From positions 12,001,807 through 12,065,806 of the forward strand of contig OZ022240.1 of assembly GCA_963978895.1 (NCBI GenBank): 64,000 nucleotides of DNA, written 5' to 3'. Shown piece after piece: positions 18,655-18,822 of this stretch (position 1 is its first letter; each line of letters opens with the position of its first letter). The position numbers and the translations under genes are program-made. The DNA is from Erpobdella octoculata (taxonomy: Eukaryota; Annelida; Clitellata; Hirudinida; Erpobdellidae). The notes below the pieces were generated by a model. The model was given only the letters and a program-made list of their open reading frames with translations, was not told the origin of the DNA and did not search any database.

Positions 18655-18810
18655 AGTTTCGTTGAACTTTTTAGTCCATTCTGCATTAACAAGCTTCTTA
18701 CAAAAGTTTTGAAGAATAACGATTTCTTTTTTATTATTAGAAATACGACTACAAAGAGATTTAAAACTTTTATTAAATTGGGCTAACTGGCCAGTTTCGG
18801 ACGTATCCAT
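18655..18810 (-). CDS. PLE ORF N-terminal segment starting inside the hammerhead
   Basis: ATG at 18810 lies in the hammerhead (last core A, extra T, first G of stem II). The frame stays open: MDTSETGQLAQFNKSF, then LQNFCKKLVNAEW and KKFNETCLKKN before (TA)n. Codons 1-14 are read from ribozyme sequence, including GAA-ACT from the GAAA core. This is the cleanest case of ribozyme and start codon overlapping. Confidence 0.75.
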
Positions 18811-18822
18811 CTTCAGAGCCCC
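18780..18822 (-). ncRNA. Hammerhead ribozyme motif (PLE)
   Basis: Minus strand: stem I GGGGCT (18822-18817) with AGCCC (18784-18780), core CTGAAGA (18816-18810), extra T, stem II GGA-TACG-TCC, GAAA (18798-18795), palindromic stem III ACTGGCCAGT, cleavage triplet GTT (18787-18785). A full core with covarying stems relative to other copies makes it a strong candidate. Confidence 0.85.

Follow-up and report, generated by a model that had tools for sequence, protein, structure and literature searches.

Several Penelope-like elements (PLEs) lie within a stretch of 64,000 nucleotides from the leech Erpobdella octoculata (assembly GCA_963978895.1, contig OZ022240.1, positions 12,001,807 to 12,065,806), denoted here as the window. 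Nine hammerhead-like motifs were found in it with a covariance model that was built from four window hammerheads and carried an N at the position of one extra base. In all nine, a T and then a G come directly after the core (CTGANGA or CCGANGA); the T is the extra base, the G opens stem II, and with A9 of the core they read ATG. This pattern had been recognised in the first-pass annotation of the window, which placed the codons correctly to within a few bases (ATG at 18810-18808, 2261-2259, 1873-1875 and 36632-36634). The present analysis concerns the role of this ATG, i.e. whether ribozyme and start of translation share the same nucleotides. The copy at 18779-18822 comprises the following features.

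18779-18822, minus strand: family A hammerhead (stem I GGGCT/AGCCC, extra T, stem II, palindromic stem III ACTGGCCAGT)
18808-18810, minus strand: AUG, made up of A9 of the core, the extra T and the G of stem II; its frame runs into the PLE N-terminal domain (MDTSETG...NAEW..FNETCLK)
18784-18785, minus strand: cut predicted from hammerhead rules, between 18785 and 18784, 26 nt past the A of the AUG
18650-18810, minus strand: N-terminal coding stretch, which is the 3' tail of the copy and reaches a T/A run and (AT)n
19219-21066, minus strand: C-terminal part of a family A PLE open reading frame (ORF), upstream of the 18779-18822 motif and probably of the same 5'-truncated copy

Hammerhead motifs in the window

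The remaining motifs, together with the short upstream ORFs (uORFs) that several of them open and one PLE ORF, are distributed as follows.

1861-1903, plus strand: family A hammerhead with stem III one base shorter; ATG 1873-1875, stop after 8 codons
2228-2273, minus strand: family B hammerhead; ATG 2261-2259 in frame (MADIAETVRRSD...SSKW)
12870-15446, plus strand: PLE ORF of family C with reverse transcriptase, lacking its 5' part and abutting a microsatellite
15927-15970, plus strand: family C hammerhead
15939-15995, plus strand: family C uORF from the hammerhead AUG, 18 codons and stop; next in-frame ATG 16005-16007
58670-58713, minus strand: second copy of the family C hammerhead; ATG 58701-58699, later ATG 58635-58633
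36620-36663, plus strand: family D hammerhead
36632-36685, plus strand: family D uORF from the hammerhead AUG, with 17 codons before its stop; the main ATG, 36700-36702, lies in a different frame (MNSRDFESLAKKRINAKW)
35860-35903, minus strand: family D hammerhead, head-to-head partner; ATG 35891-35889, main ATG 35823-35821
17631-17676, minus strand: family E hammerhead; ATG 17664-17662; frame broken in the window copy, open in another copy (L040)
16989-17036, minus strand: family F, the ninth motif, with a change at core G12; a 12-codon uORF begins at ATG 17024-17022

An independent scan for core and stems that left the extra base free recovered eight of the motifs in the window and none in 100 mononucleotide shuffles; the one missed, 16989-17036, has lost G12, the G of GAAA. 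An in-frame run into the conserved W peptide was found only from the ATGs at 18810 and 2261. Those at 36632 and 35891 open the peptide MLFCETDRSALVFNKSI with a stop directly after, those at 15939 and 58701 the likewise stop-terminated peptide MTVVETGQSVLIIIICII, and the frame from 1873 reads MDTSETGR followed by a stop. The peptides described in the first-pass annotation were read correctly there; the stops at 36632/35891, 15939/58701 and 1873 had been left out.

The elements are PLEs of the Penelope/Poseidon type, as shown by their reverse transcriptase (RT), tandem units with pseudo-long terminal repeats (pLTRs), a tail at an internal RT start, and AT-rich targets. The Pfam RT family RVT_1 scored above cut-off in the ORF at 12870-15446 and in P0121, the protein of an intact copy discussed below, and below cut-off in 37916-38857; no Pfam match to it was obtained in 19219-21066. 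The ORF at 12870-15446 has 1205 relatives at E <= 1e-5, 120 of which were listed. A YIG-containing stretch is visible in the ORFs. No Pfam GIY-YIG match was returned for P0121 or the window ORFs; P0159, among the listed relatives, carries PF01541. Motifs recur in tandem at spacings of one unit, namely 3585 bp in family A, 3946-4010 bp between five motifs of family F5, and 3456, 3457 and 3461 bp in family D.

By their sequence, the motifs are type I hammerheads with a short stem III, combining CUGANGA, stem II, GAAA, an NUH cut site and stem I pairing. The Rfam hammerhead models reported none of the nine window motifs at E <= 1, nor the segment 18779-18822 at E <= 10. In predicted monomer folds of six window motifs, stem III does not form, which fits a motif that is said, going by the title of the work of Lunse et al., to act as a dimer.

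Conservation of the extra U across the genome

The genome searched comprises 386 Mb in 94 contigs. A pattern that left the extra base free and demanded stem III gave 1306 matches, and none when the pattern was reversed. The extra base differs from T in only 13 of these, i.e. it is T in 1293, and in a further 19 the T is not followed by G, leaving an ATG in 1274; the first approximately 100 matches listed, all on one contig, have the ATG by eye. Since the catalytic A9 was found changed in 8 cases in a genome-wide comparison, the extra U is changed about as rarely as this nucleotide. The CCGANGA form of the core yielded 389 further matches, with 3 lacking the ATG by eye among the first approximately 100 listed.

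When 113 sampled sequences (355,509 bases) were scanned for the core together with stems I and II, 128 distinct copies emerged, and T followed by G was present in every one of them; copies with zero or two extra bases were not found among these 128, and three shuffles gave no match. About half of this set are family A copies that were fetched by an ATG-containing pattern, and the remaining loci were chosen from lists with ATG in nearly all rows. The genome counts with the free pattern are therefore the better test. A related hammerhead family with an extra base other than U, which would have spoken against the first-pass proposal that the U is kept to make the start codon, was not encountered among these 128 copies.

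Two classes of hammerhead AUG

Copies were grouped into families of like stem II sequence, delimited by ourselves, and 21 families were classed according to whether the frame of the hammerhead AUG runs stop-free into the conserved N-terminal domain; for this purpose, a profile made from 100 relatives was applied to 127 copies and the frames were read. Loci with an unclear domain, frame or decision (L030, L063, L094, L095, L096, L097, L100, L111, L112) stand outside the class table, as does L092, which was counted as an F8 copy with a stop.

In 13 of the 21 families, at least one copy is in frame (class I). For family A this holds for 37 of 64 copies, with the domain in another frame in 15, behind a stop in 4, and without a match in 8. 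In-frame copies in the other class I families amount to 3/4 in B, 1/2 in E, 2/2 in F5, 4/4 in F7, 1/3 in F8, 3/4 in G1, 1/2 in L019/L041, 2/2 in L040/L052, and 1/1 each in L011x, L017, L042 and L099. Two copies are particularly informative. In L009, a family A unit in tandem, the frame from the hammerhead AUG has no stop for 510 codons; its next Met, codon 73, comes after the domain. In L098, one unit of a five-motif array of family F5, an intact ORF of 1161 codons begins at the hammerhead AUG, with the next Met at codon 141. The array itself (G000:C1:30131146-30147088) carries its five hammerheads on one strand and represents a tandem PLE array. The AUG of class I is thus likely a working start codon, as judged from these reading frames.

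The other 8 families constitute class II, in which the domain lies past a stop or in another frame. This was seen in all copies of C (4/4), F1 (4/4), F6 (5/5) and L004/L006 (2/2), in the window motif at 16989, and in 5/5 distinct copies of family D plus the tandem units L113 and L114. In F2 (3/3) and F4 (3/3, besides 2 more copies without the domain), the hammerhead AUG of the copies with the domain cannot reach it in frame without a stop. The hammerhead AUG of class II would accordingly open a uORF, which measures 3-18 codons, and 23 in one family D copy (L104). Both full-length family D units, L113 and L114, have the uORF stop, and their main ORF starts from a later AUG downstream of the cut and stays open through the end of the stretch read, for more than 360 codons in L113. 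Cleavage in family D would therefore remove only the uORF and the cap, as opposed to beheading the main ORF in class I.

The extra U is found in both classes, and the proposal that it is kept because it makes the start codon consequently covers the data in part: the in-frame AUG of the 13 families and the long ORFs agree with it, and the 8 uORF families keep the U as well, so that the start codon as its cause does not cover all cases. An ORF starting elsewhere, with stops between the hammerhead ATG and the NAKW peptide, had been named beforehand as evidence against the proposal, and this arrangement was found in these 8 families and in part of the nine window cases.

Coding signatures and protein relatives

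Stem II and its loop make up whole codons in 11 of 13 class I families versus 2 of 8 class II families (Fisher value 0.018), and G stands at +4 of the AUG in 13 of 13 versus 3 of 8 (Fisher value 0.003), both values being overstated and to be read as descriptive because the families are related and author-delimited. Position -3 relative to the AUG is occupied by A6 of the core, as the motif itself dictates. The ratio of nonsynonymous to synonymous substitutions at codons 1-20 was considered as a coding test and discarded as unusable, the copies having been chosen by a pattern that fixes the motif.

Complete N-termini are available for 100 of the 158 listed protein relatives, and 76 of them begin 35-39 residues before the FN motif. 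A start of the form M-x(2-7)-ET occurs in 8 of the 100 (2 of these inside the domain itself), compared to 0-2 for five other dipeptides. One relative, P0001, is 53% identical to P0121 (the 1161-codon ORF of L098) over 98% and has the N-terminus MAAAETGRLTP. Three others (P0134, P0137, P0152; proteins only) start M(P/S)DD...ET, as if their AUG stood just before the core and the hammerhead were read in another phase. Searches of viral contigs and genome contigs gave no relatives at the DNA level, and a search with the N-terminal region of P0121 gave no match.

Predicted cleavage position and copy ends

In family A, the cut is predicted from hammerhead rules at 26 nt past the A of the AUG. A dinucleotide repeat is reached by 59 family A copies; it sets in 154-169 nt after the AUG in 36, 183-197 nt in 18, and elsewhere in 5; the other 14 of 73 copies met no such repeat within the stretch looked at. 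These copy ends, approximately 154-197 nt after the AUG, mark the start of reverse transcription. The two clusters are reminiscent of the Poseidon element of Anolis carolinensis, which is reported to have two internal RT start sites and a tail, with the RT start 111-118 bp into the ORF (PMC11167929). With reverse transcription starting there, an RNA cut at +26 would yield inserts of approximately 130-170 nt that begin at the cut.

Such inserts are nearly absent. The base before the cut is C in 291 family D copies and another base in 1 (L116), and in family A it is T in 55 copies and G in 1, the G copy having the motif upstream. Copies beginning at the cut thus number 0 of 56 in family A and 1 of 292 in family D, in total 1 of 348, a count that a copy with the same preceding base by chance (approximately 1 in 4) and a cut RNA joined into a circle would escape. 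The single case, L116 (G000:C3:12075103-12075223), shares three bases with the flanking repeat, and a chance truncation is possible. Where the motif is intact, family A copies have their 5' ends at widely differing points, from 13 nt upstream of it to beyond the 500 or 1500 nt examined. A template made by cleavage is thus unsupported.

Other observations concern the ends and neighbours of the copies. Three of six family A copies with a downstream ORF (L010, L011, L016) begin 245-254 nt upstream of the hammerhead, possibly at a transcription start, and the remaining three begin 13 (L009), 284 (L038) and at least 486 nt (L060) upstream. In five copies (L001, L030, L031, L055, L058), the same non-PLE head is fused 134 nt upstream of a family A hammerhead, and the same frame-breaking deletion follows it; this chimera is a short element that retains hammerhead and tail. 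Neighbouring family D copies less than 8 kb apart (26 pairs among 100 of 291 copies listed) are mostly oriented (-,+), in 21 pairs, with 1 pair (+,-) and 4 in the same orientation. This head-to-head bias, exemplified in the window by 35860-35903 (-) and 36620-36663 (+), would agree with the extension of both DNA strands that has been reported for the Anolis element.

Relation to known ribozyme-bearing retroelements

In R2, a hepatitis delta virus (HDV)-like ribozyme lies at the 5' end of the RNA, before the ORF. The present elements likewise have a self-cutting RNA near the translation start of a retrotransposon and differ in that the class I cut falls downstream of the AUG. For the self-cleaving HDV-like ribozymes of R2 and other long interspersed nuclear elements, 5'-end processing and translation initiation are named as likely roles in a review that also calls the role of PLE hammerheads unknown (PMC7761336). 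The motifs described here resemble the minimal type I hammerheads that Cervera and De la Pena (2014) and Lunse et al. (2017) described in the pLTRs of PLEs, as recounted in PMC7761336 and PMC6155905.

The closest known system is the Anolis Poseidon element. According to its report, the ORF begins at hammerhead stem II, the cut lies 26 bp downstream of the start codon, cleavage is assisted by the protein, for which binding to the initial ~170 nt of the coding RNA is proposed, and a cleavage-dead ribozyme was still inserted in vitro (PMC11167929). The overlap itself is therefore known for one element, and the first-pass remark that it was not known to be described is superseded. The same arrangement, a main ORF from an AUG over A9/stem II with a cut 26 nt on, is present in class I, e.g. 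in family A, and absent from class II. The AUG/hammerhead overlap, the 26-nt distance (family A), an internal RT start early in the ORF, a tail and AT-rich targets are shared with the lizard element. It differs in being a single element with an ORF start, compared to 21 classed families with a near-invariant U and a uORF class. The overlap as a general feature, the near-invariant U and the uORF class were not found in the open literature, a search outside of which the two main PLE hammerhead papers (2014, 2017) lay.

Competing explanations

The reading considered probable as a whole is that the extra U, present in 1293 of the 1306 genome matches, makes an AUG which is likely the start codon in 13 of 21 families and opens a short uORF in 8, and that the cut acts as a feedback off-switch rather than as maker of a template. 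Its start-codon and uORF half is drawn from sequence, its off-switch half from the geometry of the motif and the work on Anolis. Translation and ribozyme folding would be mutually exclusive on one RNA, and the protein of the element would tip the balance towards the folded ribozyme, as suggested by the protein/RNA binding proposed for the Anolis Poseidon element. In class I, a cut would then take off the AUG, in class II the uORF together with the cap, and it might serve as a late or feedback off-switch for translation. A more far-reaching version, which is regarded as rather unlikely, holds that the hammerhead core itself provides an AUG in strong context, with A6 at -3 and in many cases G at +4, which the element's protein flips from start codon to ribozyme, the RNA being translated and then beheaded, and that class II has shifted its start beyond the cut, retaining the AUG as a removable uORF brake.

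Besides the overstated Fisher values, several points weigh against the start-codon and off-switch reading. The class I families E and L019/L041 have a stem II that is not in whole codons, and only 37 of the 64 family A copies are in frame to the domain, as expected of decayed copies. Six substitutions common to at least 10 of 73 family A copies at codons 12-31 all fall on first or second codon positions, which leaves this region of family A without a purifying signal. For the 33-residue domain, the tree has good support on 1 of its 19 inner branches. The M-n-ET signature is missing from most of the 100 complete relatives, whose proteins begin at a conserved Met located further on. In Anolis, no RNA ends were detected at the cut (PMC11167929), and for the leech, start use, cleavage and feedback are all predictions.

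It is also possible, though clearly less probable than the favoured reading, that the extra U bulges out between A9 and stem II as a structural feature of the ribozyme or goes back to a single ancestor, and that the AUG is a by-product which was adopted as a start or carried along as a harmless uORF. The presence of the U in the uORF families just as in the start-codon families speaks for this, as does its retention in the short chimeric derivative with its broken frame, whereas the G at +4 and the whole-codon bias of stem II in class I are left unexplained; moreover, this explanation is compatible with a start-codon role and questions only that this role is the cause. It is improbable that translation of the main ORF begins further upstream, at an in-frame AUG or a non-AUG codon, and passes through the hammerhead. 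In-frame ATGs do lie 39 codons upstream in F5 and 18 codons upstream in L011x, a further point against initiation in the ribozyme, and the frames of the examined class I copies are open for 5-41 codons upstream of the hammerhead AUG, yet the examined copies of families A, B, E, F7 and L099 have no upstream in-frame ATG. The least probable explanation, with very little credence left to it, is the model of the first-pass annotation, in which uncut RNA serves as mRNA and cut RNA as a unit-length template for transposition. Hammerheads one unit apart in the tandem units and the one family D copy beginning at the cut would suit it; the near absence of other such copies and the spread of 5' ends in family A argue against it, as does the insertion of the Anolis element in vitro independently of cleavage.

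Implications

The extra U gives reason to ask why these ribozymes carry a base with which the Rfam models do not report them. If class I translation starts inside the ribozyme and that of class II does not, one genome would offer a natural comparison between PLEs in which the cut beheads the ORF and PLEs in which it does not, and the contrast of the two classes makes the purpose of the cut directly testable.
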